Positions 23,633 to 45,660 of a DNA stretch of 64,000 nucleotides are shown here, one piece after another; the stretch's first letter is position 1, and each line of letters begins with the position of its first letter. A program made the translations under genes and the position numbers. The stretch comes from a bacterium (lineage in GTDB: Bacteria; Zhuqueibacterota; QNDG01; JAGLOF01), in the NCBI GenBank assembly GCA_023139105.1, contig JAGLOF010000058.1:1-64000 (forward strand), read 5' to 3'. The notes under the pieces were generated by a model. It saw only the letters and a program-made list of their open reading frames with translations. It made no database searches and was not told where the DNA came from.

Positions 23633-24258
23633 GATAGTTTTCGCCAATTATCAGGCAAGTAGTTCTTGACTTTATCTATGATGTATATTATCTTGGTAAA
23701 TGTACTTTACAATATACTTTTTTAATCTACCGATACGTTGCTGAATTCTCTCAATACGTTGATTGATCTATGTGTAGCTTTCAATAATTTAAGTGCACTA
23801 TCTATATCAGTAGCACGTTTTTATTTATACTTTTTCTACATTTTCTGTAATTAAACACTGGTGCGCTCTTTGGGGAAGGGGACGTGCCCGTGTCTGGATG
23901 ATTTTTTTCATTCCGGCATGTCATGTGTTTGACCGGCATCTGATGTTGTGATGGGGATGTTGGGGTATTCCCTTTTGTTGTTTGTGGGGGGGAGCAAGTG
24001 TTTGATTTGATTTATGTTCAAAAAGGGATAGTGTTGAATCTCCAGTGGTTTAGTGATGCTCGTTTACCATATAATAAAATTTCTGTATATGGGCATTATG
24101 GAATGGGCAGGGGTGGAAAGTTTTTTATTACAAATGTCTGGAATAGCTAATTCGTTTGTATATGTACTAATTAATTGTTTTTTGTTTTTTGGCTGCTGGA
24201 CTAAGGTTATTGTGCTAATAAAGTTACACGGCTGTCTCATTATTTGAAGGGAGGTTTT

Positions 24259-24393
24259 ATGTCTACTACCGGAGAAAAACCTGGTGTTGGTTTATATACC
24301 TGCACAAAATGTGGTGAAACTGTTTATTTAGACGATAGTACTGATAGATTGCCACCTTGTCCAAAGTGCCATAATACTGAATATACTCCATAA
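24259..24393 (+). CDS. 44-aa zinc-ribbon protein
   Basis: MSTTGEKPGVGLYTCTKCGETVYLDDSTDRLPPCPKCHNTEYTP; RBS ggaggt; below ORF-track cutoff. Confidence 0.75.
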   Translation: MSTTGEKPGVGLYTCTKCGETVYLDDSTDRLPPCPKCHNTEYTP

Positions 24394-24440
24394 ATGTTTT
24401 AAAATGAGACAGCCGTGAATAAAAAAATGATGAGAGAATA

Positions 24441-24989
24441 ATGGACCATAAGACAGAAGAAGAAAAGAAGGCAGCTTTTTATTCATCACTCATGAGTGGT
24501 TGGCTTGAGACTAAATTGGAAAAAGATAAAAGTATATTGATGTTATCTGCAGGAGGAATAGGATTATTAATAACTCTCCTTACTGCTATTGGAATACCAA
24601 GTGTATTAATATTGTTACTTTATGGGTTTGCTTTAATTGCATTCATATTAACATTATTCCTAATAATCAAGATTTTTGATAAAAATGGGGATTATCTAAA
24701 AAGTTGTGCAGTAAAAGAGGAAGATCTTGATAAACCAAATCTATCAAAATTAGATAAATGGGTGATGATTTTTTTTATTACTGGTATTTGTTTTTCATTT
24801 TTTATAGGAGTTACAACAGGTATTAGTAGCCTTTCAAGGACAAAGGGGAATAAAATGGCTTTTAATGAAAATGAAGAAACTACAGTTCCGAATGAAGAGA
24901 AAAGCTTTAATGGATTTGAGGATTTTAATCCAGATACCGAAAGTGATAGTTCAGAAACAGATGAATCTAGTTCAGAAACAGATGAATAA
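24441..24989 (+). CDS. Hypothetical membrane protein with acidic Ser/Glu-rich tail
   Basis: Hydrophobic TM segments; SDSSETDESSSETDE C-terminus. Confidence 0.55.
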   Translation: MDHKTEEEKKAAFYSSLMSGWLETKLEKDKSILMLSAGGIGLLITLLTAIGIPSVLILLLYGFALIAFILTLFLIIKIFDKNGDYLKSCAVKEEDLDKPNLSKLDKWVMIFFITGICFSFFIGVTTGISSLSRTKGNKMAFNENEETTVPNEEKSFNGFEDFNPDTESDSSETDESSSETDE

Positions 24990-24997
24990 ATAAAATA

Positions 24998-25187
24998 CAC
25001 AATAACCCGTGTTTGCTGGCGGACACGTCCGGCCCGGCTGTGCGGTGTGGGCCGGTTCAGTTCGCGACGGGTTCCGCCGTCAATGACGCAGAGGTTCTGG
25101 GTTAATTGCCGGCGTTGTAATACATTTTCATTGTGGCAATCCGATTAAATTCGGTTGGGCGCACCGCAGAAACATAGAACGTTAGAT
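24998..25187 (+). other. attC site, type II right half
   Basis: CACAATAAC...GCGCACCGCAGAAACATAGAACGTTAGATGC; same family as 41268 and 43883 sites. Confidence 0.72.
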
Positions 25188-25207
25188 GCAAGAATGAGGG
25201 TTTAGCT

Positions 25208-26665
25208 ATGGATAATCAATCTCAGAATTGTAAAGTCCACAAAGATAATCCTTCTGTGGTATTTTGTAAAAGATGTAATTCATTTATATGTCGTTCATGT
25301 ATCATTGAATTGGCAGGGAAAAAACTATGTAAACTGTGTTATGATCAATCTATTATTAAAAAATATATTAAAAAAAATCAAATAAAGAAATTTGAGTGGA
25401 AAAATTGTTTCAAATCTATATCACTTGATAGTAACTACTGTGAATTTTGTGGAAAGCTAAATGTAAAAAAAAATAGAAAGGCTGTTCGACTAAAGAAAGA
25501 TAATTCGGAAGATTCAAAAATCATTAAAGTAAATAAGCAATATGATAGAGATTTATTTTTCGATTTTATTAAATTTATATTGCTATTCGGTATTATTCTA
25601 TTCCTTCTATTCACTGTTTTAGTCCAAAAAATTTCATCAATAACAGATTATTCTGCAATTGCTCAAATATTATTTTGTATTCTAGCAGGAGTATTAACTT
25701 TAGGATTATGTATATTAATGATTCGTATTAAAATTAGGATGAAGGTTGCACTGATAGCATTTATAATTGCTTTGCCATTTACGTATTCAGTTGCTTCATA
25801 TTTTGAGTCATCCCGCATAAAATCAATAGATAAGGAATTTCATTTAGGACTCAGTCACTTTAAAAACGGAAATTGGATAATTGCCAAGGCGAATTTTGAG
25901 ACTATTGTTAAAAAAACTAATAATTATAAATTTGCCAAGTCAATGTTAGATTCTACGAATACAATTATTGCACAAATAAAATCCGATTCTTTAATGCAAA
26001 TTTCAGAACAAGCTATGAAAAATCAAGAATATTTTTCTGCACTTGATAATGCTTATTCAGCAAGTGAGATCACACCTTACAATAACAAAATATATGATCT
26101 CTACTATCAAGCGTGCACAAGAATTATGCCTCTTGCACAACAAGATTATTGGAAAAAAGATTATGACAGTTCAATGAAATTAGCTAATAAAAGCCTTGAA
26201 TTTTTAAATAAAATTAAAAATAAAAATTATCCAAATCTTTCCCAAAAAATTCGACAAGCAGAAAAAATTGCCATTAGTAGTAAGAGTAAAAAACAAGAAA
26301 TAGAAAAAAGTGAAATGGAGAAACGTCAGCGACGTTTGACAAGGGCTAAAGCACAGGAATATGCAAACGAACTTGCGAGTATTAACGAAGGCAAAGATAT
26401 GGCTGTTGCTTTTAATCTAATCACTGCTCAAGGGAAAAGGGAAAAGATTGGATGGATGCTTCAAATGGACTTGAAAAGTATATTAGAACAATTCAAATAT
26501 TATGGGTATCATATTCGGGGTGGGACAAAGGTTGAACTATATGATAAAATTTTGTATCAAGTTGATTGTTTTAAAGATGACAACAAAAATTACTTCGCAT
26601 ATATAAAGAGTAATTTAGCTTGTGACAGATGGTTAGTTACGGGAGTTTATTATAGAGGTAGATAA
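25208..26665 (+). CDS. Hypothetical protein with N-terminal B-box/zinc-binding Cys motifs and TM segments
   Basis: CKVHKDNPSVVFCKRCNSFICRSCI...CKLCYD, then two hydrophobic segments. Confidence 0.55.
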   Translation: MDNQSQNCKVHKDNPSVVFCKRCNSFICRSCIIELAGKKLCKLCYDQSIIKKYIKKNQIKKFEWKNCFKSISLDSNYCEFCGKLNVKKNRKAVRLKKDNSEDSKIIKVNKQYDRDLFFDFIKFILLFGIILFLLFTVLVQKISSITDYSAIAQILFCILAGVLTLGLCILMIRIKIRMKVALIAFIIALPFTYSVASYFESSRIKSIDKEFHLGLSHFKNGNWIIAKANFETIVKKTNNYKFAKSMLDSTNTIIAQIKSDSLMQISEQAMKNQEYFSALDNAYSASEITPYNNKIYDLYYQACTRIMPLAQQDYWKKDYDSSMKLANKSLEFLNKIKNKNYPNLSQKIRQAEKIAISSKSKKQEIEKSEMEKRQRRLTRAKAQEYANELASINEGKDMAVAFNLITAQGKREKIGWMLQMDLKSILEQFKYYGYHIRGGTKVELYDKILYQVDCFKDDNKNYFAYIKSNLACDRWLVTGVYYRGR

Positions 26666-26670
26666 TATTG

Positions 26671-26961
26671 TATATAACGAATAAGATTCACCCTCGACCA
26701 GCGGCCCTGCGGCAAATCGGGACGTGTACGAGGACGGAGGCGGGGTTGGGACTATTTGCATTTTCCATAAAATGAGTGTCTGGCCGGAAGAGGCACCATT
26801 AACATTGGTTCGGTACTGCTGTCTTCGGCAAACGACGGGAGTACGCCGTCAGCGACGCGAGACTGCGGGGCTGGTTAGAATTTTTGTTGATTATTAGAAG
26901 AACACTGCCGCCCGTTTGGGGACGGCCCCGGCGCGCCGCAGAAGCATATAACGTTAATGCA
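26671..26961 (+). other. attC site (left-half consensus; long composite right half)
   Basis: TATAACGAATAAGATTCACCCTCGACCAGCGGCCCTGCGGCAAATCGGGACGTG ... GCGCCGCAGAAGCATATAACGTTAATGC. Confidence 0.72.
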
Positions 26962-27085
26962 TAATGTTCTTGCCATTGAATAATGTGTTATTGGTATTTT
27001 TGGATAATTTATATTTTTTGTTAAAATGGACTATCAATAATGCAACTTAGAATGCCATTTATGGCTAACCAGATCGAGGGATGAT

Positions 27086-29218
27086 ATGGAAAACCAACTT
27101 CTAAATAAACCTGTGTATGAATTAGGTTCAGTGGAAGCACTTCAATATTATGTCCATCGTAATTTTCATAAGTGGTCTTCTTGGGATAAAGTTAATGATA
27201 TCATACATGAATGCCAAACTAGCGGGAATTCACACTTTGTTTTTTTGGATGGAGGAGCAGGCTCTGGGCGGAAGTATTTTAGCCGTGGAATTGCGGAATA
27301 CCAATATCAAATACAAAGGAGTGGGGCGAAGCACTATTTTATTGATCTGGTAACAGATATAAAGGATCCAAAAAAAATATTGAGATCCATTCAAGGCGAG
27401 AATAAACATGATTTATTGAAAAGACTTAGACAGTATTTAGGGATAGAGCAGTTTCCTCTCGGTTTGGAGGGCCGTCTTATTTTGGAGGTTGTAAAATTTT
27501 GTGTTCTTTTCTTAAAAGATAACAATTTGAAAGATAGTCCTGTTACGCTTTATGATGCTATTCATGATTTTTTATTAAAGTCTTCTTATAAAGGGTTGGT
27601 TATACTACATGTCGATAATTTTAGTCAAGCTGGAGTTGGTTTTCCGGAATTTTTGCTAGATCTATGTATAGATAATAGCAAACTAGGTAATCCAATCATA
27701 GTTTTCCTTTCCGGTCAAGAAGGTGAGTGGATGAGAAGTAATCCTGCGATGGACCTTTTTTTTTATAGGCTTGAACAATATAAATTAATTTCAAAAATTA
27801 GTTTTGAACCTCTTTCAGAAAAGGAAATCAAAGAAATATTTTCAAAGCGATTGGATGTCAAAAATATTGAGAGGAAGATAGTCAAAGATAGTACTTATTA
27901 TTCTAGGGGGCAGGCACCAATCCTGGCACAACTTGTACAAAATTGGATTACCATGGGCGTTTTGATTTGTAATGAATCTGGGTGGTCATTTGTCGATAGC
28001 ACCCAATCAGAAAGCTATATGCAGTCATATAAATCAATAAAAGAGATCCATCGTTATAACGACTTAGTTTATTCAGTCTCATCTGTGCATAGACAATTTT
28101 TATTGGATTTTATAGAGTATTCTGCTCTGTGTGGGATGCAAATTCCAGTGCAACTCATTTTTCAAGCGATGAACATTTTGCCTTTACAATGGGTGGAAAA
28201 ATATCATGAAATTTCTGGATGGATACTAACACATAGCGGGTCAGATGCATCGGTAGAACCTTGTTTATTTAATCAGAGTGGCCATGAATCAGCTCAAAGT
28301 TTCATGGTAAATGGTGAAAAGGCTGATCTTCTTTGTTTTACTCAATCTTGGATGCCTCAATATTTTTTACCAAGAAAAATAAGTGAAAGGACAAGAAAAG
28401 CTAAAAAATTGTTACTAGCAAATAATATGTGTAATGTCAATTTTTATCCCCATGCCAAGCTCATATTAAAAATAGCTCGCTATGCCCAAGATAAAGTGAC
28501 TGAAACCGAACTTGAGAGTTATTTGTTCTGGGCAAGCAAATCTTACCAATATGAAGTTCTCCAAAAGTATTTTGTAAATGAAAAAACAAAGCAGATTATC
28601 AAACCTCAGTATCTTTTAGAAAGTTTTTGTAAATTTTCAAGTCACCTGCCAAGTAAGCAGATGGAACCACTAGGGGATTTTTTATGGGAAATAACATTTA
28701 AAAACTTTGAAAATCAAAGTGGATACTTTTCTATGTCAGAATTGTGCAGTTTGAGCCATAAATGGGTGGAAATTAAATTTGCCCTAAAAAAGTACGAAGA
28801 GGTAATTGTTGGTTGTGTGGCATTATTGCAATGGAGGCAATGTTGGTATCCCTTTTATTATAAAGGCTTCGCTCATCTTACCCTTGATGAACTACCTGAA
28901 GCAATGGAAATGTTTGCTGAAATTATTGAAAGGTGGGGTGGTGGAGGAACTGATGAATGTATAACTCATAATGGATTATGTTATGCTTATTTTGGAATGG
29001 GAACTGTTCATTCTGAACGAAAACAATATGATGATGCATGTTCTTTTTTTAAACATGCAATAGGCTCCATTTCAATTAAAAATGATATGGATAAACAATC
29101 ATTAGCAACTATATATTCCACTCTTGACGAATTGCTGAGAAAACAAGGGAATTTTGAAGAAGCTGAGATATATATAAACAAAGCAAATTCGATTTTGGAT
29201 GAATTGGATGCTAAATGA
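27086..29218 (+). CDS. P-loop ATPase with C-terminal TPR-like repeats
   Basis: FVFLDGGAGSGRKYFSRG Walker A, GLVILHVDNF Walker B-like; YKGFAHLTLDELPEAMEMFAEIIE TPR. Confidence 0.55.
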   Translation: MENQLLNKPVYELGSVEALQYYVHRNFHKWSSWDKVNDIIHECQTSGNSHFVFLDGGAGSGRKYFSRGIAEYQYQIQRSGAKHYFIDLVTDIKDPKKILRSIQGENKHDLLKRLRQYLGIEQFPLGLEGRLILEVVKFCVLFLKDNNLKDSPVTLYDAIHDFLLKSSYKGLVILHVDNFSQAGVGFPEFLLDLCIDNSKLGNPIIVFLSGQEGEWMRSNPAMDLFFYRLEQYKLISKISFEPLSEKEIKEIFSKRLDVKNIERKIVKDSTYYSRGQAPILAQLVQNWITMGVLICNESGWSFVDSTQSESYMQSYKSIKEIHRYNDLVYSVSSVHRQFLLDFIEYSALCGMQIPVQLIFQAMNILPLQWVEKYHEISGWILTHSGSDASVEPCLFNQSGHESAQSFMVNGEKADLLCFTQSWMPQYFLPRKISERTRKAKKLLLANNMCNVNFYPHAKLILKIARYAQDKVTETELESYLFWASKSYQYEVLQKYFVNEKTKQIIKPQYLLESFCKFSSHLPSKQMEPLGDFLWEITFKNFENQSGYFSMSELCSLSHKWVEIKFALKKYEEVIVGCVALLQWRQCWYPFYYKGFAHLTLDELPEAMEMFAEIIERWGGGGTDECITHNGLCYAYFGMGTVHSERKQYDDACSFFKHAIGSISIKNDMDKQSLATIYSTLDELLRKQGNFEEAEIYINKANSILDELDAK

Positions 29219-29355
29219 GTATATTTATATTTATATTTATATTTGAGATTGAGTTGTTAATGTAATGGCTTGATTTATACATAACAATGTTGAAGTATAT
29301 AGATGGTTTTTCAGGAATGTGTCATGAGATTATTATATTGTCTTATAGATAATTT

Positions 29356-29500
29356 GCGTTAACAATTAACTGCACAGGATGCAAACGCTGCCTGTCATCG
29401 GTGGCTATTGTTCGTCAGCCGATGGAAATGAGCGTCATTAACAGCTTTACAAGTCCGACGCTGTCGCGTCGGTTCGACGGGTTGCTGCATCATTAGCGAT
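29356..29500 (+). other. attC-like site, divergent type
   Basis: GCGTTAAC...(cassette start GTTAATGC at 26953)...CATCATTAGCG. Confidence 0.45.
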
Positions 29501-29554
29501 GGTAGCTTTTGTTTGCACTTGTGAGCATTGTCATACCACTAAAGAGGATTATCT

Positions 29555-30352
29555 ATGTCCACTAGTAGAAAAACAATACTCATGCTCATAGGTGTGTTGG
29601 TTCTCTGGGCACTGAATATACTCGTCTTATCTCAATTTTTTGATGCTCCTGAGAGTGTAAGTAGTTTTGGGGATTCTTTTGGATGTGTAAGTGCTCTTTT
29701 TTCTGGACTTGCGTTTGTAGGGCTGATCGTGGCAATTCTTCTTCAAATGGAAGAATTAAAATTACAAAGAAAAGAATTGTCACTTACACGTGATGAGCTT
29801 GAGGGACAAAAAAAGCAATTAAGTTTACAGAATGATACATTGAAAACACAGGCATTTGAAAATATGTTTTTCCAACTATTACAGTTTCAAATAAATTTAA
29901 CTGAGTCAATTGATTCTGTAAAACCCAATAACCGCGGATTTGTTGTCACGTATAAAGGAAAAGATTGTTTTGTGGAGTTTATTAATAAAGTTCGTAGTGA
30001 GTATAGTCTTAACGCATTGAAAAATTTGGATACAAAGAAACGTTTAAAGACCGCTGTAATAAAATTTAAAGATATGTTTGATAAAGAGTTAAGCCATTAT
30101 TTAAAAAGTTTGTATCAAATATTTAAGTTTTTGGATGAGGCTAATATTCAAAAACAACAACAATATATTGATTTATTAAAAGCAATGCTTTCAAATCAAG
30201 AAATAATAATACTGCTATATCTCCATGTGTCAGATATCATTTCAGATGAGCTTAAGATGATGCTGGTGAAATATCAAGTATATGATGATATAATCCCTGG
30301 AAGCTCAATTGATAACAATCATGAGAAATTGTTGAAAGATATCGCAGTATAA
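29555..30352 (+). CDS. Putative phage abortive infection protein (pAbiC-like)
   Basis: Two TM segments, coiled coil, then ENMFFQLLQFQINLTESI...GKDCFVEFINKVRSEY as in putative abortive infection proteins. Confidence 0.7.
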   Translation: MSTSRKTILMLIGVLVLWALNILVLSQFFDAPESVSSFGDSFGCVSALFSGLAFVGLIVAILLQMEELKLQRKELSLTRDELEGQKKQLSLQNDTLKTQAFENMFFQLLQFQINLTESIDSVKPNNRGFVVTYKGKDCFVEFINKVRSEYSLNALKNLDTKKRLKTAVIKFKDMFDKELSHYLKSLYQIFKFLDEANIQKQQQYIDLLKAMLSNQEIIILLYLHVSDIISDELKMMLVKYQVYDDIIPGSSIDNNHEKLLKDIAV

Positions 30353-30715
30353 CGAATAAAATTTACACTCAACCTACGGCCCTGCGGTAAATCGGGACGT
30401 GTACGAGGCCGGTGGTGGGGCCGGGACTATTTGCATTTTCCATAAAATGAGTATTTGGCCGGAAGAGACCAAAAAAGAGAATTATATATTCATACAGCTC
30501 ACAAAACGCAGATTCAAAGTATCATATCAGGAAGGTTTGTTACCTGATGATTTTGATATGCCATTTTTAAGTAATTAAAGCTGTATAAATATTCAAAGCA
30601 CATTTAATGTGACAGCTGAATTGATGAGTTTGCACTGCCTAAAGGCACGTGCCACACGAGTGATTGTTCATTATCATGGTCACCCGTCGGCTATACTAAG
30701 GTTCTACGCGTAATA
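30347..30715 (+). other. attC-type composite site
   Basis: TATAACGAATAAAATTTACACTCAACCTACGGCCCTGCGGTAAATCGGGACGTGTACGAGGCCGG ... cacgagtgattgttcattatcatggtcacccgtcg shared with the 45.2 kb site. Confidence 0.6.
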
Positions 30716-31387: not shown

Positions 31388-31568
31388 TATAATTATTAAA
31401 AGATTGGTTAAAGGCTGTAGGCTCCACCCCACACGTTGAAGCCTGTAATCTTTTCGTTCAGCGCAAATTTGCGTAGAACCAGCGTTTGCAAAAGACGCGG
31501 CGGTCCACGTCCGGGGCTTGCGACAGTGCCTGTCGCCGCGCATTTGAAACGTATGACGTTATGCGTAA
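31388..31568 (+). other. attC-like site
   Basis: Ends GACGTTATGCG; next cassette starts GTTATGCGTAA. Confidence 0.55.
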
Positions 31569-31573
31569 AAAAA

Positions 31574-32692
31574 ATGAATGAGGATAAAATGAATAAAACT
31601 GAATTTCTAAAAAGTTTTAATGTTTCAGAAACTGATTTTAGAAGAGCTGGATATTCATGGAAATTTCTTCAAGCAATAAAGAATGATTATTTAACCTATA
31701 GGCAACCTTTAGAACAAACGTGTAAAGATATTTCTGAACGTCTTGTTACTCATAGTAATGTGCATTCAATAAAACGAAGACTAAAGGATCCATATCATTT
31801 AATAGAGAAAATAATTCGGAAAAAAAATAAAAATAATGAATTTGATATTAGTATTGATAATTATAAAAGCTTGATAACTGATTTGTCAGGAGTTCGTGTC
31901 CTTCATCTTTATAAAGAAGATTGGTTAGCGATCCATAATTTCATTAGTACTACTTGGAAATTAAAAGAAAAACCAATAGCAAACATTCGTAATGGGGACT
32001 CACTAGAATATATAAATGAATTTGAAAAATATGGTTGTGATATTAATGAGCATGAACATGGATATCGGTCAATTCATTATTTGGTTGAATCACAACCTAC
32101 CGTTGAAAAGCATATAACTGAAATTCAGGTGAGAACTATATTTGAGGAAGGATGGGCCGAAGTCGATCATGATATCAGGTATCCATATGATACGGACCAT
32201 GTCATCATTAATCAATTTATCCATATGTTTAATCGATTAGCTGGTAGTGCCGATGAAATGAGCTCTTTTATTAAATATTTGAAGAGAGAACTGATCACTA
32301 TCAATGATGACTTTCAAACCGAACTAAATAAAAAAGCTAGAATTATTGAGGAACTAAAAATAACGATTGAATCTTTGAAAGTTGATCGATCTGCAAAAAA
32401 ATCATTAAATGATTCTCTTAACACTCTTTCAAATTTAAAATTTATGACAGGAAATACTATTGCTGCAATGCTCAATACAAGTGATATCAATTCAGGCGCT
32501 ATTCATGTGGCTATTAGTTCAGCATTGATGGCGACAAATGCGCGGAATATGATATTGGACAGTCATATATATGATCCTCATCCTTCTTTTTATGATGGTA
32601 CTAGTTCAACTGAGGCTAACTTAAGTGAAGAGCCTGACATTAATGATAAAAAAGATGATAATGATATGCAACCTGAAGTATCAGATGACTAG
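31574..32692 (+). CDS. RelA/SpoT-domain putative small alarmone synthetase
   Basis: LITDLSGVRVLHLYKEDW...HEHGYRSIHYLVES...TEIQVRTIFEEGWAEVDHDIRYPY; start moved to ATG 31574 just inside the cassette. Confidence 0.82.
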   Translation: MNEDKMNKTEFLKSFNVSETDFRRAGYSWKFLQAIKNDYLTYRQPLEQTCKDISERLVTHSNVHSIKRRLKDPYHLIEKIIRKKNKNNEFDISIDNYKSLITDLSGVRVLHLYKEDWLAIHNFISTTWKLKEKPIANIRNGDSLEYINEFEKYGCDINEHEHGYRSIHYLVESQPTVEKHITEIQVRTIFEEGWAEVDHDIRYPYDTDHVIINQFIHMFNRLAGSADEMSSFIKYLKRELITINDDFQTELNKKARIIEELKITIESLKVDRSAKKSLNDSLNTLSNLKFMTGNTIAAMLNTSDINSGAIHVAISSALMATNARNMILDSHIYDPHPSFYDGTSSTEANLSEEPDINDKKDDNDMQPEVSDD

Positions 32693-32700
32693 TTAATATA

Positions 32701-32758
32701 TTACGCATAACGAATAAGATTTACCCTCGACCAACGGTCGAGCGGCAAATCGGGACGT
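32701..32758 (+). other. attC left half
   Basis: TTACGCATAACGAATAAGATTTACCCTCGACCAACGGTCGAGCGGCAAATCGGGACGTGG; complements cassette start at 31558. Confidence 0.8.
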
Positions 32759-32946
32759 GGAGTGTGGCTGGAAAGGTTTTAATGAGATGCTGAAGTATCA
32801 ACTCCATCCCACAACCCAAATAATCGGATATTTGGCTTAAGGAATGATCTTGTATGAAGTGAGCAATACTGAGGAGCCTTGTGCGGGAACGTTGCACGGG
32901 GAGCTGCGAGAGGGCGGCTGGGTGCGTTGGCCGTTCTACCTTGATT
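32759..32946 (+). mobile_element. Group II (IIC-like) intron 3'-terminal remnant, copy 1
   Basis: gaggagccttgtgcgggaacgttgcac...gggtgcgttggccgttctaccttgat: domain V-like AGC, GNRA-like loop, then domain VI-like hairpin. Confidence 0.5.
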
Positions 32947-34839: not shown

Positions 34840-34900
34840 ATCTGTATAAAACGAATAAGATTTGCACTCGGCCTAGGGCCCTGCGGTAAATCGGGACGTG
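34840..34900 (+). other. attC left half
   Basis: ATCTGTATAAAACGAATAAGATTTGCACTCGGCCTAGGGCCCTGCGGTAAATCGGGACGTG; complements GCTATACAGAT at 33903. Confidence 0.75.
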
Positions 34901-35066
34901 AATAGGATGCTGTAGTATCAACTCCATCCCGTAACCCAAAATAATCGGATATTGGGTTTAAGGGATGTTCTTGTACGAAGCGAGTAATATATTAACCTTG
35001 TGTGGGAACGTCGCACGCAGGTGCCTGGGAGGGGGCTGCCGGGTACGTTGGCCGTTCTACTTTGAT
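34901..35066 (+). mobile_element. Group II (IIC-like) intron 3'-terminal remnant, copy 2
   Basis: gatgctgtagtatcaactcc...ccttgtgtgggaacgtcgcacgcagg...gggtacgttggccgttctactttgat. Confidence 0.5.
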
Positions 35067-35839: not shown

Positions 35840-35857
35840 GTATATAACCCTTTCCAA

Positions 35858-36979: not shown

Positions 36980-37027
36980 CGAATAAGGTTTGCACTCGAC
37001 CTACGGCCCTGCGGCAAATCGGGACGT
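36975..37027 (+). other. attC left half
   Basis: AATAACGAATAAGGTTTGCACTCGACCTACGGCCCTGCGGCAAATCGGGACGTG. Confidence 0.75.
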
Positions 37028-37195
37028 GAGTAGGATGCTGAAATATCATACATTCCGCAACCTGAAATAATCGGATATTGGGCATAAGGAATATTCTTGT
37101 ACGAAGCGAGCAATAATGAGGAGCCTTGTGCGGGAACGTTGCACTCAGGGATCTGGGAGGGGACGGTCGGGTACGTTGGCCGTTCTACCTTGATT
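37028..37195 (+). mobile_element. Group II (IIC-like) intron 3'-terminal remnant, copy 3
   Basis: gatgctgaaatatcat...gaggagccttgtgcgggaacgttgcactcagg...gggtacgttggccgttctaccttgattg. Confidence 0.5.
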
Positions 37196-37307: not shown

Positions 37308-38333
37308 ATGTCTAAAATAAGAAAATATGCAAAATCAGATTTTTTTGACAAAGTAGCTGAAACTTTAAAAAATGCTCGAATCAGTGTTGTTCAAACCGTT
37401 AATAAAACAATGGTTTATACATATTTTGAAATTGGTAGAATAATTGTAGAGGAACAGCAAGATGGTAAAGAACGAGCAGCATACGGTAAGAATATTATTC
37501 ATGAACTTTCGAAACGCCTTACTTCAGAGTTTGGCAAGGGCTTTTCGGTTGATAATTTAGAGAACATGCGGAAATTTTATCTTGCGTATTCAATTTCCGA
37601 GACAGGGTCTCGGAAATTGGGTGGCAATGAATTTCAGCTTAGTTGGTCACATTATATAAAACTCATTAGAATTGCGGACCTTAAGGAAAGAAAATTTTAT
37701 GAAATTGAAGCAATCCAAAATAATTGGAGTTTGCGGGAGCTTAGAAGACAATATGACAGTGCATTGTATCAAAGATTGGTCCTCAGTAGAGATAAGAAAG
37801 GGATTAAGGAATTATCCGAAAAAGGGCAATTGATAGAAAAACCAAAGGATTCATTGAAAGATCCATACATATTGGAATTTATAGGACTGCCTGAAAAAAG
37901 GAAATATTCAGAATCCCAATTTGAACAAAGACTTATTGATAAACTTGAACATTTTTTATTGGAATTGGGTAAAGGATTTACTTTTGTTGCACGGCAGAAA
38001 CGGATAACTATCGATGATAAACATTTCAGAATTGATTTAGTATTTTACAACAGAATTCTTAAATCGTTTGTGATTATTGATCTGAAAATTGGAGAATTAA
38101 AGCATCAGGATATTGGGCAAATACAAATGTATGTGAACTATTATGATAGATTTGTAAAGTTGGATGATGAAAATAAAACGATAGGAATAATTCTTTGCCA
38201 AGATAAAAGCGAAACATTGGTAGAAATTACTTTGCCTGAAGAGAATGAACAAATTTTTGCCAGTAAATACCAGACTGTTTTGCCAAGTAAACAGGAATTG
38301 AAGCGATTAATTGAAAATAAGGAATATGAATGA
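37308..38333 (+). CDS. YhcG-family (DUF1016) PD-(D/E)XK nuclease domain protein
   Basis: ARISVVQTVNKTMVYTYFEIGRIIVEEQQDG...GKGFSVDNLENMRKFYLAY...ELGKGFTFVARQKRITIDDKHFRIDLVFYNRILKSFVIIDLKIGELKHQDIGQMQMY-like. Confidence 0.92.
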   Translation: MSKIRKYAKSDFFDKVAETLKNARISVVQTVNKTMVYTYFEIGRIIVEEQQDGKERAAYGKNIIHELSKRLTSEFGKGFSVDNLENMRKFYLAYSISETGSRKLGGNEFQLSWSHYIKLIRIADLKERKFYEIEAIQNNWSLRELRRQYDSALYQRLVLSRDKKGIKELSEKGQLIEKPKDSLKDPYILEFIGLPEKRKYSESQFEQRLIDKLEHFLLELGKGFTFVARQKRITIDDKHFRIDLVFYNRILKSFVIIDLKIGELKHQDIGQIQMYVNYYDRFVKLDDENKTIGIILCQDKSETLVEITLPEENEQIFASKYQTVLPSKQELKRLIENKEYE

Positions 38334-38365: not shown

Positions 38366-38424
38366 TACACATAACTAATAAGATTCACCCTCACAACCTA
38401 CGGCCTTGCGGCAAATCAGGACGT
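38366..38424 (+). other. attC left half
   Basis: TACACATAACTAATAAGATTCACCCTCACAACCTACGGCCTTGCGGCAAATCAGGACGTGG. Confidence 0.72.
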
Positions 38425-38598
38425 GGAGTGTGGACGGAAAGGTTTTAATGAGATGCTGAAGTATCAACTCCATCCCGCAACCCAGAATAATCGGATATTG
38501 GGTTTAAGGAATGATCTTGTACGAAGTGAGCAATGCTGAGGAGCCTTGTGCGGGAACATCCCACGCAGTGATCTGCGAGTGGTAGTCCTACCTTGATT
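38425..38598 (+). mobile_element. Group II (IIC-like) intron 3'-terminal remnant, copy 4 (domain VI shortened)
   Basis: agtgtggacggaaaggttttaatgagatgctgaagtatcaactccatcc...gaggagccttgtgcgggaacatcccacgcag...gtagtcctaccttgat. Confidence 0.48.
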
Positions 38599-38623
38599 AA
38601 GGCATAAATTATAGGGGTAATAT

Positions 38624-39493
38624 GTGAAGCAATCATTTTTGTTGATTTGTGCCTGTTTATGCCTTGCTGCATTGGGATGCGATATATGTAATATGTCAAA
38701 CAATAATGATGAAGTGATTTCGTATGTAGATATTCCAATTCGCATGCTAAATAATGGTGTGATTTCCAAGATAACAGGTTTTAACTATGTTTATTCTTTA
38801 GATGATACTGTTTCTGGCCAAATGTTATTGATTAATAAAAATGATACAGCTGGTTTCCATTTATATGTAGGTAATAGTCCGCCAATATACTTTTGGAATG
38901 TATTCAATACTTTAGGAGAAAGATGTTATTCTTCTTGCGGTGACGTGGGGTGTTCTGTTTATAATAAAACATTGTTACCCGGAGATTCTTTAGAACGCTC
39001 AATCGTTTGGAATCAAAATCATATGCAAGGATTTAAAGTTTTTTCAGGTATTTACAAAATTGAAGGAAATTATATTGGTAATACTGCTTTTTGGTATACG
39101 GATTTAGTGAAATGGATAAAAATAAACGAATTGGGCAATCCATTGAGTACTGGTACAAATAGAGATTATGAGGCAGTTGATTCATTGAAAGTTGATTTTT
39201 TAATACGAAATCGAATATCTAATAATTATACATTGAATTTTTCTGAGAATAGTTTTTTTTACTGTATGTTTGTTTCCGGAACGGATACTCTCGTTTATAA
39301 AAAAATAAATATGTTTTCAATGTTTGGAACAGATTTGGAAATTAAAGCAAAGTCAGATATGCTATTTTTTTCTTTGGCAATACCCAATGAAGCTAGAGAA
39401 TTAAAGGATTTTCAGAAGCGTTTTAATGTTTTGTTTTTACTGAATTGTGTTGGTAAACAAATTAAGGAATCAAGATCTTGTTATTTAAGGTAG
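38624..39493 (+). CDS. Predicted lipoprotein
   Basis: GTG start; KQSFLLICACLCLAALGCDIC lipobox. Confidence 0.6.
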   Translation: MKQSFLLICACLCLAALGCDICNMSNNNDEVISYVDIPIRMLNNGVISKITGFNYVYSLDDTVSGQMLLINKNDTAGFHLYVGNSPPIYFWNVFNTLGERCYSSCGDVGCSVYNKTLLPGDSLERSIVWNQNHMQGFKVFSGIYKIEGNYIGNTAFWYTDLVKWIKINELGNPLSTGTNRDYEAVDSLKVDFLIRNRISNNYTLNFSENSFFYCMFVSGTDTLVYKKINMFSMFGTDLEIKAKSDMLFFSLAIPNEARELKDFQKRFNVLFLLNCVGKQIKESRSCYLR

Positions 39494-39502
39494 TTAAAAA
39501 GC

Positions 39503-39575
39503 TTTTAACAAATAAGATTCACCCTCAACCAACGGCCCTGCGGCAAATCGGGACGTGGAGCATGGCCGATTGTTT
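39503..39575 (+). other. attC site
   Basis: TTTTAACAAATAAGATTCACCCTCAACCAACGGCCCTGCGGCAAATCGGGACGTGGAGCATGGCCG. Confidence 0.7.
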
Positions 39576-39772
39576 ATTTGGGAAAATATGAGTGAAAGAT
39601 TAAATGTCCATACCGAAAGGGCGGTTTCGTTAACCGAATTTTATCTGTCATTGAGCTTTTAGAAACGTCTGGTATCAACATTTAAGAATGATTTTTGGCA
39701 GTATGTTAATAATCATGTGGCTTAATTGGCTCAACGAAAGATAAAATCCTTAAAGTTATACAGTAAAGGAGG

Positions 39773-39994
39773 TTACTGTTTCCAAGAAATTGTGGGCTTC
39801 AAATGATGTTCAGCACAATCTCTAAGAAACATATTAATTAATTTTTGATATGGAATGTCGGTTTCTAATGCCAATGCTTTGAAATAATTAATTGTTTCAT
39901 TTTCGATGCGAATAGTAATTTGTTTTTTTAATTTTTTAGCATAGGGATTTTGGATTGATTTTGAAAAATCATATTCGTTTCTCATTTTGATCAC
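39773..39994 (-). CDS. BrnA-like / CopG-type antitoxin
   Basis: KKQITIRIENETINYFKALALETDIPYQKLINMFLRDCAEHHLKP. Confidence 0.82.
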   Translation of the reverse strand: MIKMRNEYDFSKSIQNPYAKKLKKQITIRIENETINYFKALALETDIPYQKLINMFLRDCAEHHLKPTISWKQ

Positions 39995-40326
39995 CTTGAA
40001 AAGTAATACTTAGATTCATTTTTAGTTGCTTTACGAGCTGATATAATGCGAATAATATGATCATCATCCCGATAAGCATGAACAACGACCAGTAATTTTA
40101 AATGACTACTGTGCCCTAATAAGATAAATCGGTCTTCCTGTTCTGAATGATCTGGATCGTGCATAAGTCTTGCCTTATCATCATAAAAAACAGTTTTGGC
40201 CTCTGCAAATGAAACATGATGTTTTTGTTGATTAGCTGTGTTCTTTTGCTGGTCCCATGTGAAAGATATGTTGCTCATATGGTCAATATAATTATATGAA
40301 CAATACAAAACAAGGGGATTGTACAT
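39991..40326 (-). CDS. BrnT-family toxin
   Basis: SFTWDQQKNTANQQKHHVSFAEAKTVFYDDKARLMHDPDHSEQEDRFILLGHSS...IRIISARKATKNE. Confidence 0.9.
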   Translation of the reverse strand: MYNPLVLYCSYNYIDHMSNISFTWDQQKNTANQQKHHVSFAEAKTVFYDDKARLMHDPDHSEQEDRFILLGHSSHLKLLVVVHAYRDDDHIIRIISARKATKNESKYYFSR

Positions 40327-40389
40327 AAAACTGAGAAAATATCAAATTATTGACTGATAGTAAATAGGAATTAGTTTTGTACGGTGTCA

Positions 40390-40569
40390 AAGTCATAACG
40401 AATAAGATTCACCCTCGACCTACGGCCCTGCGGCAAATCGGGACGTGGACCAGGCCAGTGAAGGAGCAGGGATTATATTGCATTTTCCATAAAATGAGTA
40501 TCTGGCCGGAAGAGATCAAAAAGAGAATTATATATTCATACAACTCACAAAACGCAGAACTCGTTATGT
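40390..40569 (+). other. attC site
   Basis: GTCATAACGAATAAGATTCACCCTCGACCTACGGCCCTGCGGCAAATCGGGACGTGGACCAGGCC ... CGCAGAACTCGTTATG. Confidence 0.75.
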
Positions 40570-40647
40570 TGCTAAAAAAAAGTTACTTGCATCTTTAGAT
40601 GTGCATGTTTACATTTAGAAGTGTAAACTGTGTATTGGAGGTGTATT

Positions 40648-40887
40648 ATGAAAGCAACAGCAAAGGATTTAAGATTTCATTCAAAGGAATTGTTGGATAC
40701 AGTTTCAAGAGGAGAAGAAGTAGTCATTACATTCCGTGGTAAACCCCAAGCAAAATTGATCCCTATTGAATATGAAAAAGATGAAGAAATACTATCTTCT
40801 AATTTATTTGGAATTTGGAAAGATAATACAGATATGGAAGACGTCCCCAATTATGTCAGAAAAATGAGGAAGGGGCGTTTTCAATGA
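40648..40887 (+). CDS. Phd/YefM-type antitoxin
   Basis: MKATAKDLRFHSKELLDTVSRGEEVVITFRGKPQAKLIPIE. Confidence 0.88.
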   Translation: MKATAKDLRFHSKELLDTVSRGEEVVITFRGKPQAKLIPIEYEKDEEILSSNLFGIWKDNTDMEDVPNYVRKMRKGRFQ

Positions 40888-41261
40888 TTATTGACACTGA
40901 TGTATTAATTTGGTACATGCGTGGTAATGAAAAAGCGTATGACATTATAGAAAGTATTCCATCATTCTATCTATCAGTTATTTCATACATGGAATTAGTC
41001 CAGGGTATGAGGAATAAAACAGAATTAAATGAGCTCAGAAAAGCATTGAGAATATGGAATGCAAAAATACTATACGTAACAGAAGATATTTCTTCCAAAG
41101 CCATGTTTTATATGGAAAGACACTATCTCAGTCACTCTCTTGAAATAGCTGATTCTTTGATTGCTGCAACATCAATCACAAATGCTCTTACTCTGCTAAC
41201 TGGAAATGATAAACATTACAAAGTAATTTCTGATCTTGATCTTCAAATATTCAGGCCATAA
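40884..41261 (+). CDS. VapC-like PIN-domain toxin
   Basis: MIIDTDVLIWYMRGNEKAYDII...SLEIADSLIAATSITNALTLLTGNDKHYKVI. Confidence 0.92.
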   Translation: MIIDTDVLIWYMRGNEKAYDIIESIPSFYLSVISYMELVQGMRNKTELNELRKALRIWNAKILYVTEDISSKAMFYMERHYLSHSLEIADSLIAATSITNALTLLTGNDKHYKVISDLDLQIFRP

Positions 41262-41267
41262 AAAAAA

Positions 41268-41465
41268 TAGCAGCATCATCCGCGTTTGTTGGCGGGTATG
41301 CCAGGCCCGGTTGTACGATGTGGGCCAGTTCGGCTTGCGACCGCTTCACCGTCAACGACGCATACGTTCGTGTCTAGTTAATTGCCGGCATTGTAAAACA
41401 TTTTCATTGTGGCCGTCCGATTAAAACCGACGTGGGCGCGCAGTAGAAGCGCAGAACTCGTTATT
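41268..41465 (+). other. attC site, type II right half
   Basis: TAGCAGCATCATCCGCGTTTGTTGGCGGG...GTGGGCGCGCAGTAGAAGCGCAGAACTCGTTATTC. Confidence 0.75.
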
Positions 41466-41545
41466 CAGCCAAAAAATACCTTGTGCTGGGCTTGATTTGT
41501 ACCTTAATTTAGGTTGTGATTAAAACCCAAAAAGGAGCTAATGAA

Positions 41546-41839
41546 ATGAAAAAATTCTGTGTAGCATCCGATATTATTCCAGTTGGAGAGTTTAAAACTG
41601 GAATTGCCAAGTATTTGAAAAATATTCAGGAAACTGACCATCCTGTAATTATAACACAAAATGGCCGTCCTGCAGGAGTACTACTTTCACCAAATGAATA
41701 TGATAATTTAATTCATAGTAAGATATTTGTTGATTCAGTCAATCGAGGATTATCAGATGTCGAATCTGGTAACACATTTTCTACAGAAGAAGTAAAATCC
41801 AAACTAAATATATTGAGAGCCTCGCGGAGGCAAAAATGA
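41546..41839 (+). CDS. Phd/YefM-type antitoxin
   Basis: IIPVGEFKTGIAKYLKNIQETDHPVIITQNGRPAGVLLSPNEYD. Confidence 0.9.
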   Translation: MKKFCVASDIIPVGEFKTGIAKYLKNIQETDHPVIITQNGRPAGVLLSPNEYDNLIHSKIFVDSVNRGLSDVESGNTFSTEEVKSKLNILRASRRQK

Positions 41840-42138
41840 AGTTAATTTGGACAGAAGAATCTCTGAACAAATTAATTGAGATAGAAGAATTTATTGCAGA
41901 AGATAATCCAATTATTGCTATCGAGTTTGTTGAATTTTTAATTGATTGTGCTGAAGAAATTGCAAACAATCCTAATAGAGGTCGCGCGATACCCGAATTC
42001 GGCAACCCAAAAATAAGAGAACTTATTCAAAAGAATTATCGAATTATTTATCAAGTAACTTCAGGTCAAATTGAGATCTTAACTGTATTTGAAGCACACC
42101 GGTTAATTCGGCGTAGTGAAATTATAAAAAATGGCTGA
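41836..42138 (+). CDS. ParE/RelE-type toxin
   Basis: MKLIWTEESLNKLIEIEEFIAEDNPIIAIEFVEFLI...RIIYQVTSGQIEILTVFEAHRLI. Confidence 0.9.
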   Translation: MKLIWTEESLNKLIEIEEFIAEDNPIIAIEFVEFLIDCAEEIANNPNRGRAIPEFGNPKIRELIQKNYRIIYQVTSGQIEILTVFEAHRLIRRSEIIKNG

Positions 42139-42180
42139 ATAACGAATAAGCTTCACCCTCGACCAACGTTGCAGTGCACG
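42133..42180 (+). other. attC left half (interrupted)
   Basis: GGCTGAATAACGAATAAGCTTCACCCTCGACCAACG; GGCTGAATAAC complements GTTATTCAGCC at 41460. Confidence 0.78.
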
Positions 42181-42284
42181 GAATTGGATAATTGATGATG
42201 ATAATATCATTCGTATTGACAAAGAGATGATAACGTAATTAGGGCATAGCTCCAGAGCGATTGAAGTTGGTAGGTAGTTGGACG

Positions 42285-42352
42285 TAGAGCGTCCTTAAAG
42301 AACATTCCCACGGATGTAATGCCCTTTGGGTAGGCCGTAGGAACGAGATAAA
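42285..42352 (+). repeat. Dispersed repeat family C, copy 2
   Basis: attcccacggatgtaatgccctttgggtaggccgtaggaacga. Confidence 0.7.
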
Positions 42353-42406
42353 TAAAGGGAAAATAAATATGTTGCCAAAAGGCACACAAAGTAGTACATT
42401 TATTAC

Positions 42407-42697
42407 ATGAAATATTTTGATTGGAATACTTTAAAGAATGATTCCCTAAAAGAATCAAGAGGTATATGTTTTGAAAATGTCGTATATGCAATTGAACATG
42501 GTTTTTTACTTGATACGATTGAACATCCAAATAAAGAAAAATATTCAAATCAATTTATATTTATAGTTGAAATTGATAATTATTCATATGTTGTTCCATT
42601 TGTGAAAAATGATGAAACGTTTTTTCTTAAAACAATTATACCAAGTAGAAAAATGACAAAAAAGTATTTAGGAGACATTAAGAATGAATCTAAATAA
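42407..42697 (+). CDS. BrnT-like putative toxin
   Basis: MKYFDWNTLKNDSLKESRGICFENVVYAIEHGFLLDTIEHPNKEKYSNQFIFIVEIDNYSYVVPFV...LKTIIPSRKMTKKY. Confidence 0.72.
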   Translation: MKYFDWNTLKNDSLKESRGICFENVVYAIEHGFLLDTIEHPNKEKYSNQFIFIVEIDNYSYVVPFVKNDETFFLKTIIPSRKMTKKYLGDIKNESK

Positions 42698-42965
42698 AGA
42701 GGAAAAAGAACTGCTCGATTCTGTAGAAAGGGGCGAGTGGAAAACAATACCTGATTTCGAACGGGAAAAAGAGCGATTTCAAGAAATTGCAAGAAATACC
42801 CATAAAAAAAATAAAAGAGTGAATATTCGAATTTCTGAGAAAGATCTGATAAATATACAAAGAAAGGCATTGGAAGAAGGGCTGCCATATCAAACATATA
42901 TGTCTAGTATATTGCATAAATTTATTGGTGGTAAATTAATTGAGAAACCAATCGGTATATCCTAA
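42684..42965 (+). CDS. CopG-type antitoxin
   Basis: RVNIRISEKDLINIQRKALEEGLPYQTYMSSILHKFI. Confidence 0.85.
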   Translation: MNLNKEEKELLDSVERGEWKTIPDFEREKERFQEIARNTHKKNKRVNIRISEKDLINIQRKALEEGLPYQTYMSSILHKFIGGKLIEKPIGIS

Positions 42966-42974
42966 GCAAAAACA

Positions 42975-43030
42975 CCACTAACGAATAAGTTTCACCCTCG
43001 ACCTACGGCCCTGCGGCAAATCGGGCCGTG
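42975..43030 (+). other. attC left half
   Basis: CCACTAACGAATAAGTTTCACCCTCGACCTACGGCCCTGCGGCAAATCGGGCCGTG. Confidence 0.75.
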
Positions 43031-43218
43031 GAGTGTGGCCGGAAAGGTTTTAATGAGATGCTGAAGTATCAACTCCATCCCGCAACCCAAAATAATCGGA
43101 TATTGGGATTAGAGAATGTTCTTGTACGATGCGAGCAATAATGAAGAGCCTTGTGCGGGAACGTCGCGCGCAGGGATCAGAGAGGGGGCTGCCGGGTACG
43201 TTGGCCGTTCTACCTCAA
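43031..43218 (+). mobile_element. Group II (IIC-like) intron 3'-terminal remnant, copy 5
   Basis: gagtgtggccggaaaggttttaatgagatgctgaagtatcaactccatcc...gaagagccttgtgcgggaacgtcgcgcgcagg...gagagggggctgccgggtacgttggccgttctacc. Confidence 0.52.
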
Positions 43219-43240
43219 TTACATTTAAGAAGGGTAATAT

Positions 43241-43878
43241 ATGAGACTGTTTAGTTACTTATCAATTTTAATTCTAATTCTGTCCTGCTCCAGTGAACAC
43301 AAGTCTTAGTCTTGGATGAAAAGTTTAAATCAAAAACATTAACGAATGAAGTTTTTTGTTTATGTCCTCACACAGGTGAGTATACAATATCCGAAACAGA
43401 AATTACTCACTATAGATTCCCAGCGGCGAATCAATTTATAAGTATTTTTTGTGATGAATTTTTGAAAGCCTACCCTGACAATTATTTAATAGTGCCAACT
43501 GACGTAGAGAGATTTTTTCCAGACATAGAAATAGAAATGCTTGATCATCGCGATTGTTTTAATAATATGACTCCAGAAGATTCTCTTTTTTTCCAGAAAA
43601 TCCGTACTACTATAAATGCAGATTATTTTATTTATTTTGAACGGCTAGGTTTTGGTGCATCTGATGGATCTATGCCAGGTAGTACGATTATGACTTCAAA
43701 ACAATCTCAAATGATAACCCAAATCTGGGATATAAATAATAAAAAGCTTGTTGCTCGTATTATTAGCAAAGGGGATGATGCTGATATTGCCGGACTACTA
43801 AAAGATCGGTCCACTCGTAATGCCGTAGCTCGAGCAGTAAAAAATTTATTAAAGCAATTCCCTCCAAAATCAAATTAA
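43241..43878 (+). pseudogene. Lipoprotein gene split by a frameshift (signal ORF 43241-43309, body ORF 43312-43878)
   Basis: MRLFSYLSILILILSCSSEHKS* followed out of frame by LDEKFKSKTLTNEVFCLCPHTGEYT... Confidence 0.6.
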
Positions 43879-43882
43879 AAGA

Positions 43883-44079
43883 AATGTATAGCCCGTGTTT
43901 GCTGGCGGACATGCCCGGCCCGGCGGTTCGGTGTGAGCCAGTTCGGCTTGCGACAGCTTCCACCGTCAACGACGCATACGATCGTGCCGGGTTAATTGCC
44001 GGTGTTGCAAAACATTTTCATTGTGGCCGTCTGATTAAAACCGACGTGGGCGCGCCACAGAAACACAAAATTGTTATGT
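43883..44079 (+). other. attC site, type II right half
   Basis: TGTATAGCCCGTGTTTGCTGGCGGACATGCCCGGCCCGG...GTGGGCGCGCCACAGAAACACAAAATTGTTATGTG. Confidence 0.75.
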
Positions 44080-44092
44080 GTCAGAGTGCCCC

Positions 44093-45046
44093 ATGAAAAG
44101 TTGGTACCATTTAGCTTATGTTAGGAATTTAATTTTGATAAATACCGTGCTCGGACCTATTACCAAAGAGAAACTGGGTAACACTAGAATTCATGAACAT
44201 ATTTTATGGGCCTGGACAGGCACTAGTCGGCAAACTTATGATAAAGCGGCACTTTTAACTGTGATGGTGCCTTATTTAAAAGAATTGAAATCATTAGGTT
44301 GTGATACACTTGTTGAAATGACTCCTTTGGGTGCAGGACGGGATGTTTCAGTTCTAAAAGAGCTGTCAGAAAAAACGGGACTCAATATCATTGCTAATTG
44401 TGGTGTTTGGGATGGATTAGACTATAATCAAGTTTTTGTTCCAACTGAATTACTTACAATGAAGTCAAATGATATTGCAAAACAATGGATCAACGAATAT
44501 AAAAATGGAATTGATGGTACTTTGATAAAACCTGGAGTAATAAAAATTGGACTTGGTGACAATGATCAACTATCATCTTTTCAATTGGAGTTTTTAAAAG
44601 CAGCTTTTTTGACTAGTGAAGAAACTTCTTTACCAATAGTAGCACATATATGTTCTTCCTATTCAGCTCGTCAAATAGTGCGTATAATGAAAGAATTAAA
44701 TTTCAATTTAAAGAAATTCATCTGGAGTCACGCTGACTTTTCTTTTGATATTGAAACAATTGTTAAACTGGTGAAAGATGGAATTAAAATTGAACTAAGC
44801 TGGCATGTAGGTACTGGTAAAAAAACGGATTGGTATAAAAATCTGTTTAAAGAATTATCTGAATTGAACCTACTTGACAATGTGTTCTTATCGCAAGATG
44901 CTGGTGGCTTTCATAATGGCAAAATTGTTAGTTATTCAGAGTTCTACTCTCATTTTTTGTTGGTTTGTTTTGACGATAATTTGGCTTCAACTGATATTAT
45001 TTCAAAACTAATGATTGATAATCCTGCAAAAGTATTAGATATTTAA
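44093..45046 (+). CDS. Phosphotriesterase-like metal-dependent hydrolase
   Basis: TRIHEHILWAW (HxH), GVIKIGLG (Lys), LPIVAHICSS (His), FIWSHADF (His), FLSQDAG (Asp) ligand motifs. Confidence 0.82.
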   Translation: MKSWYHLAYVRNLILINTVLGPITKEKLGNTRIHEHILWAWTGTSRQTYDKAALLTVMVPYLKELKSLGCDTLVEMTPLGAGRDVSVLKELSEKTGLNIIANCGVWDGLDYNQVFVPTELLTMKSNDIAKQWINEYKNGIDGTLIKPGVIKIGLGDNDQLSSFQLEFLKAAFLTSEETSLPIVAHICSSYSARQIVRIMKELNFNLKKFIWSHADFSFDIETIVKLVKDGIKIELSWHVGTGKKTDWYKNLFKELSELNLLDNVFLSQDAGGFHNGKIVSYSEFYSHFLLVCFDDNLASTDIISKLMIDNPAKVLDI

Positions 45047-45061
45047 ATAAAAGAATACAAT

Positions 45062-45239
45062 ACACATAACAAATAAGATTCACACTCAACCAACGTTAGA
45101 GTGGCAAATCAGGACGTGGACGAGGCCGGCATCGGGTGTCCCGGACAGTGTGGCATAGAAAAATAAACATGTGTGGCACGTAACACACGAGTGATTGTTC
45201 ATTATCATGGTCACTCGTCGCAGAAATAAAATCGTTAGC
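45062..45239 (+). other. attC site
   Basis: ACACATAACAAATAAGATTCACACTCAACC...GTCGCAGAAATAAAATCGTTAGCC; ACACATAAC complements GTTATGTGT at 44073. Confidence 0.75.
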
Positions 45240-45389
45240 CTTAAGGGCTGCCGATATAAAAAGTTATCTTGAAGTTTACGATATTTTTCTTACATTAAAG
45301 AAAATATGGGAATTTGTAAGATGAATAAACAAAAAATATACATTAATCCAATAATTTGTACACCTGAAGAATTAATGGGAGAATAATAA

Positions 45390-45563
45390 ATGTGGACTGA
45401 TGCGATAGTTGAAGAAATCAGAAAATATAGAGATGAACATGCCTCAAAATTTAATTATGATATAAACAAAATATATAAAGATTTAAAAGAAAAAGAAAAG
45501 ATAAATACTAACAAAAAAATTACACTTAAACCTAAGATTTATTTGAAATCTACAGGTGCTTGA
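45390..45563 (+). CDS. 57-aa small protein (MWTDAIVEEIRKYRDEHASKFNYDINKIYKDLKEKE...)
   Basis: ATG after short ORF; resembles a widespread family of short MWxDxIVEEVRxxRxEHAxKFNYD proteins often found next to TA-like genes. Confidence 0.7.
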   Translation: MWTDAIVEEIRKYRDEHASKFNYDINKIYKDLKEKEKINTNKKITLKPKIYLKSTGA

Positions 45564-45631
45564 TGAACACTCCTTAATTTTTTTGTAAATTATTTTATGC
45601 AGTTTTGTGAAACGATGTCACCGACCAGAGA

Positions 45632-45660
45632 TAAGGCTAACGAATAAGATTCACCCTTAA
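45632..45660 (+). other. Truncated terminal attC
   Basis: TAAGGCTAACGAATAAGATTCACCCTTA; complements GTTAGCCTTA at 45234; consensus stops abruptly. Confidence 0.75.

Follow-up and report, generated by a model that had tools for sequence, protein, structure and literature searches.

Integron gene cassettes that stand without an integrase raise the question of where such an array came from and whether it can still take up cassettes. A reading of sequence alone had described one such block, starting at position 24206 and containing about 15 attC-like repeats between short open reading frames (ORFs), and had proposed that it was either the distal part of a chromosomal integron or an immobile CALIN. 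We analyzed the window, i.e., the whole stretch of 64,000 nucleotides, which corresponds to contig C178 (66,834 bp) of a 5.29-Mb draft metagenome-assembled genome in 223 contigs (87% complete; reported contamination, 1.13%). The results indicated that the feature is a genuine array of integron gene cassettes, from which the integrase has been lost and in which the entry site has been retained. The window is likely to contain two integrase-less arrays that belong to a chromosomal integron system and are located at orphan attI-like platforms of a genome-wide family.

The window contains two cassette arrays without an integrase

The earlier description of a cassette array with attC sites and no integrase nearby proved to be right. 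All ten strings quoted for five cassettes were found at their coordinates, each pair being an exact reverse complement, and about 18 attC sites were counted in the window (15 of one family and 3 of a second). No IntI match was detected on C178. Since IntI is absent from the window, array B (24206-45690) qualifies as a CALIN under the usual definition of at least two attC sites with no intI in the neighborhood, yet it has its own attI-type entry site; neither array of the window has the intI adjoining attI and cassettes that makes up a complete integron. The proposed block start at 24206 held for array B, but a one-cassette array, array A, was already present upstream (Table 1).

The cassettes of array B number about 18. 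Type II toxin-antitoxin systems account for five pairs, including that of array A, and the other cargo of array B comprises YhcG-type nuclease, putative AbiC-like, RelA/SpoT-domain and phosphotriesterase-family proteins as well as unknowns. Chromosomal genes flank array B on the same contig, with PadR/MacB upstream and helicase/exonuclease and IMPDH downstream. A short dispersed sequence (CCCAAAGGGCATTACTTCCGTGGGAAC) was observed at 23540-23610 beside the leader of array B and, inverted, at 42305-42352 within the array and at C7:1883-1956.

Table 1. Positions of array features in the window
Feature	Position	Strand	Remarks
attI-like core of array A	18834..18850	+	CTGCTAAACTAAG|GTTA; no long leader
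Array A, one cassette	18847..19671	+	R' GTTAACTGT; R'' ACAGTTAAC at 19605-19613; attC head to ~19671
ParE/Phd toxin-antitoxin of array A	18877-19191, 19188-19469	-	
Leader of array B	23640..24206	+	Common to C67, C157, C206
Promoter-like motif in leader of array B	TTGACT 23666-23671, TATCTT 23689-23694	+	17 bp between the two
attI-like core of array B	24193..24209	+	GCTNNACTAAG|GTTA, also written CTGCTGGACTAAG|GTTA
Cassette 1	24206..25191	+	ORFs 24259-24393 (zinc ribbon) and 24441-24989; long-type attC 24998-25191
Cassette 2	25181..26740	+	ORF 25208-26665; attC head from 26668
Repeated-cassette remnant	26740..26960	+	attC tail at end; R' GTTAATGC at 26953
Cassettes with TPR protein (27086-29218) and putative AbiC-like protein (29555-30352, PF16872)	26953..30410	+	attC head at 30345
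RelA/SpoT-domain cassette (31574-32692)	31558..32760	+	R' GTTATGCGTAA, R'' TTACGCATAAC; attC 32701-32760
Group II intron relic	32753..32945	+	In attC R'; homologous to RF00029 matches
Group II intron relic	34894..35066	+	
Group II intron relic	37022..37194	+	Domain V/VI match 37119-37194, E 0.0067, below Rfam gathering score
YhcG/DUF1016 PDDEXK nuclease, cassette ORF	37308..38333	+	PADLOC PDC-S02
Group II intron relic, shortened domain VI	38419..38597	+	
BrnT/BrnA toxin-antitoxin cassette	39773..40326	-	
Phd/PIN toxin-antitoxin cassette (40648-41261)	40571..41279	+	Decayed R'' (GCAGCATCATC)
Phd/ParE toxin-antitoxin cassette (41546-42138)	41460..42143	+	Exact R'/R'' pair
BrnT-like/CopG-like toxin-antitoxin cassette	42407..42965	+	BrnT match under cut-off
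Group II intron relic	43040..43219	+	Domain V/VI match 43144-43219, E 0.01, below gathering score
Phosphotriesterase-family cassette (44093-45046)	44073..45130	+	Exact R'/R'' pair
Last cassette, no clear ORF	45234..45690	+	Exact R'/R'' pair; terminal attC truncated

Most cassette starts are complementary to their own R''

Complementarity between the start of a cassette (R') and its own R'', the property by which cassette arrays are recognized, was examined across the arrays of this genome by taking R'' from the next attC head, picked by motif and not by complementarity, with a threshold of at least 8 bases. The cassette start complemented its own R'' exactly, over 8 to 12 bases, in 12 of 18 cassettes. 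Mismatched pairings reached the threshold in 12 of 306 cases, and none of 20,000 permutations attained the observed total. This anchored test was used in place of a looser scan of 440-base regions for any complement, which did not discriminate. Further exact R'/R'' pairs were present on C67, C157, C206 and C89 and in array A (18847-19613).

The first attC family has 15 heads in the window, which are AACGAATAAG-like and include those at 19611 and 45639. These short sites have the layout AAC-GAATAA-GATTTGC...GCAAATC-GGGAC-R' and form a strong L''/L' hairpin. In their minimum-energy fold, R'' and R' do not pair, and GTT is missing at R' in many of them. An insertion-sequence terminus was considered for the AACGAATAAG head and dropped: the same R''-spacer head occurs in a second genome of the phylum (G049), whose integron has it in its first attC, so the short repeat was assigned as attC. 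A 91-base short-attC probe had many matches in this genome and none in the 58 relatives among the 59 genomes searched, as expected of a sedentary chromosomal integron. An Rfam search gave no attC match.

The second, long family has three heads in the window (at about 25003, 41275 and 43889) and sites of about 190 bp (TAACCCGYGTTTGC...GGTTGGGCGCGCCGCAGAAACGCAGAACGTTA) in which L'' pairs with L' and single extrahelical bases lie on the L'' arm. These features were clearest in C157, where the bottom strand of one site folded into a stem whose L'' arm carries three unpaired bases, each of them single; another site had a full R box (z -4.2). The long attC sites of array B folded weakly (z -1.7 and -0.9), with values for others in the genome ranging from -0.6 to -4.2.

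Arrays begin at attI-like sites behind a common leader

When up to one mismatch was allowed, a 17-base core, CTGCTNNACTAAGGTTA, was found five times in the 5.3 Mb of the genome, always at an array start; the reversed control had no occurrences. The core was preceded by a leader of ~570 bp in four of the five copies (C178, C67, C157 and C206), with 74 to 88% identity, and in these four loci similarity ended at G|TT, with divergence directly after. Conservation upstream and variability downstream of this point is the pattern that marks an attI boundary, and candidate attI sites were called by position and conservation. The 5' part of the leader (~350 bp), which opens with a promoter-like TTGACT-17 bp-TATCTT motif, also precedes iteron-type attI sites at C33 and C175, so that copies of leader or attI stand at cassette starts on C67, C157, C206, C33 and C175, the site at 18847 in the window having the core only. 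This 5' part was also found at a contig end (C102), and a further copy at C150:6619-6981 (-) had no recognizable attI or cassette behind it. The interpretation of the leader as a structured RNA or riboswitch was unsupported (covariation term, +0.37). Genes flanking the platforms varied by locus and encoded MacB permease, sulfatase, TonB plug/DUF4249, ABC-F, PdxA and S9 peptidase proteins.

In total, about ten attI-like entry sites were counted in the genome versus one intact integrase gene; as the draft comprises 223 contigs and most arrays end at contig ends, the copy numbers are minimal and a second intact intI may have been missed. The fragmented assembly, with most array contigs ending inside arrays, also allows for an artefact in which copies from different strains in one bin mimic a family of platforms. 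Such an artefact is very unlikely, given that the leaders are only 74 to 88% identical, that the flanking genes are unrelated, that two attI-like sites lie 5.3 kb apart on the single contig of the window and that the reported contamination is 1.13%.

The common leader bears on the simplest reading of array B, namely, a plain CALIN whose cassettes were inserted at secondary (attG-like) sites without any attI. Insertions by IntI at non-attI sites are known (PMC12444791, PMC10127599), and array A, with a short core and no long leader, would fit such an origin. Against it are the ~570-bp sequence before array B, with its precise end at G|TT in all four loci that share it, and the remnants of an intI-ORF head in C65, C30, C33 and C206 described below. 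We regard an origin without attI as unlikely, and the plain-CALIN label is incomplete in that array B has an attI-like start of its own, preceded by a leader that several other integrase-less arrays also have.

A single intact integrase is located on another contig

A search for IntI elsewhere in the genome, which the sequence-only reading had recommended as a check, detected one intact integrase, at C188:634-1629. This protein scored 427.5 bits against TIGR02249 (cut-off, 265) and 294 bits over its length against V. cholerae IntI4 (PDB 2a3v), with which its R, K, H-R, H and Y catalytic residues and the integron-specific additional domain aligned; it is thus an integron integrase by family score, domain and catalytic residues. 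IntI matches at an E value of 1e-30 or better were present in 32 of 59 genomes, this genome included, and a scan of genome contigs with IntI returned one relative, a Balneolales MAG at 53%, a match that gives the host no taxonomic placement. The IntI-like proteins of C157 and C206 were rejected as array integrases: they fell below the IntI cut-off and are part of an IS91-like transposase/tyrosine-recombinase pair inside an array.

On C188, intI is followed by a small ORF, palindromic iterons of ~20 bp, attI and the start of cassette 1, and the contig ends in the array. This head order, with intI read toward the array, is conserved in several relatives; the small ORF lies upstream of intI in G018, G028, G048 and G053. 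The small ORF (C188:276-632 [-], C65:22590-22946 [+] and 13 other genomes) is usually beside intI. Its product has a PGxPGT motif and no Pfam match, and may bind the adjoining iterons, which vary in sequence between platforms. Transcription of intI in the cassette direction is known from Treponema (PMC3607928), and C188 and its relatives resemble this type of sedentary chromosomal integron. They differ from it in the conserved small ORF and palindromic iterons beside intI (in C188, between intI and attI) and in the presence of several intI-less copies of the head within one genome.

The intact IntI on C188, with its array cut by the contig end, is what would be expected if array B were the distal end of a single long chromosomal integron, with the intI on a different contig. 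This half of the original proposal was rejected as highly improbable: array B is inside one contig with chromosomal genes on both sides, it starts at a conserved attI-like core and a leader that is repeated at other arrays, and the C188 integron has an attI and a first cassette of its own. The other half, a CALIN, stands by definition, and its supposed immobility applies in part.

Deletion scars record the loss of intI

Heads in which intI had been disrupted were found on other contigs. In C65, IntI residues 1 to 37 are joined through GGAAAAGGTGTTATAAGCCCGG to the intI 3' end, and downstream of this scar the small ORF is intact, the iterons differ in sequence and attI is present. The first intI junction of C30 (GGAAAAGGTGTTATAAGCC) is identical, but here a second deletion extends into the small ORF; iterons and attI come next, and then a cassette whose R' and R'' pair exactly. 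Remnants of the small ORF were detected at C33 (the last 13 residues) and, weakly, at C206, and a remnant of the intI head in the leader of array B was seen only through similarity to C206 (E 3e-4). In C178, C67 and C157, the leader/attI junction is common. A second genome from this order, G003, has on its contig C68 an orphan small ORF-iteron-attI platform and a cassette with a 10-base R'/R'' pair; no intI was found on that contig.

Because C65 and C30 have a common deletion junction and C178, C67 and C157 a common leader/attI junction, intI-less platforms appear to have been copied after the loss of intI. The ancestral head would have been that of C188, with intI, small ORF, palindromic iterons, attI and cassettes in a single reading direction. 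Copies of this head would have lost intI by internal deletion with attI being retained, and the intI-less heads would then have spread by duplication to further places in the chromosome, where several stand behind the common leader with its promoter-like motif. Each attI would have continued to collect cassettes, with the sole intact IntI, that of C188, probably acting on the orphan sites in trans.

The first cassette at C33 (C33:25385-26655; L171:7386-8655) encodes a radical-SAM protein followed by a short Cys-rich peptide (CHCECQCDCDQCVCQCDC), which resemble a modified-peptide pair.

Two attI sites have the same first cassette

Downstream of the crossover, the first cassettes of C188 and C65 were identical at 130 of 132 bases (98.5%), compared to about 60 to 65% of aligned columns upstream, the jump in identity being located exactly at the crossover. 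Such a pattern would result if one cassette had been inserted at two attI sites, and the high identity indicates recent movement or copying there. Gene conversion might also have produced it, and the insertion could be older than the intI deletion. The C188 IntI probably serves the orphan platforms in trans, a proposal that the shared cassette makes directly testable. The chances seem evenly balanced that the genome contains a distributed integron with one trans-acting integrase and some ten attI platforms scattered over the genome, duplicated after intI loss and in several cases equipped with a cassette promoter. In such a system, many chromosomal loci could capture and express cassettes, and arrays could exchange them.

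Relation to known integrase-less arrays

CALINs, loss of intI, multiple CALIN loci and secondary-site insertions are already known; in Xanthomonas, CALINs are found at several loci beside one intI locus, and arrays left after intI loss also occur (PMC12444791). The arrays described here are like CALINs in combining cassettes and at least two attC sites with the lack of a neighboring intI, but begin at attI-like sites with a common leader and preserve intI deletion scars, one of which, by being common to two platforms, indicates that an intI-less platform can itself still be copied. They share with attG insertions a location remote from intI, but the site lies within a long repeated leader and not in a short degenerate consensus. 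The open papers searched contained no description of a family of orphan integron platforms that is spread through a genome with a single integrase.

The origin and continued activity of CALINs are an open question, which this one genome addresses with a series of stages: the head is complete on C188, has an internal intI deletion on C65, lacks intI and most of the small ORF on C30, is reduced to the ORF tail on C33 and C206, and is represented by leader and attI alone in the window, C67 and C157. The genome thus illustrates the rise and multiplication of integrase-less arrays within one chromosome; annotation by attC sites without a nearby intI hides arrays with a retained entry site.

Array B looks decayed in large part

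Most short attC sites of array B have GTG at R' instead of the needed GTT, and two or three R'' sequences are mutated or decayed. In addition, ORF-less group II intron relics of 173 to 196 nt occupy at least five attC sites. The relics lie in cassette orientation, most beginning near GTGTG and all having a CTACCTTGAT-like end, and in the clearest copies the 3' end meets the variable R' bases of the next cassette. Similar relics were present in attC R' sites on C94 and C194. The two domain V/VI matches (E about 0.01) aligned end to end, and the copies are called relics only, because these matches scored 32 and 31 bits, below the gathering score of 40. Group II intron ends are known to sit in attC sites and CALINs (PMC7923331); the relics share this location with group IIC-attC introns but differ from them in lying in the cassette direction (PMC7923331).

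The GTG at R', the mutated R'' sequences and the intron relics suggest that much of array B is probably frozen, with perfect ends kept in five cassettes. Immobility, as originally proposed, therefore fits the many attC sites without a GTT core or with intron relics but not those five cassettes. The same signs of decay would be expected if arrays and attI sites were inert fossils on which IntI no longer acts. We consider this possible but doubtful, given the perfect R''/R' pairs of the five cassettes and the near-identical first cassette at the C188 and C65 attI sites; the reading of the window as two arrays at orphan attI-like platforms allows for decay of this extent in array B.

The IS91-like transposase (Y2_Tnp, Zn_Tnp_IS91) and tyrosine recombinase genes at C157:17284-19689 (L019:7285-9690) and C206:17369-18650 are apparently carried as a cassette (GTTGTACTAGG at the start versus CTTAGTTCAAC at the terminus). 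Shortened remnants of this cassette were observed after many short attC sites.
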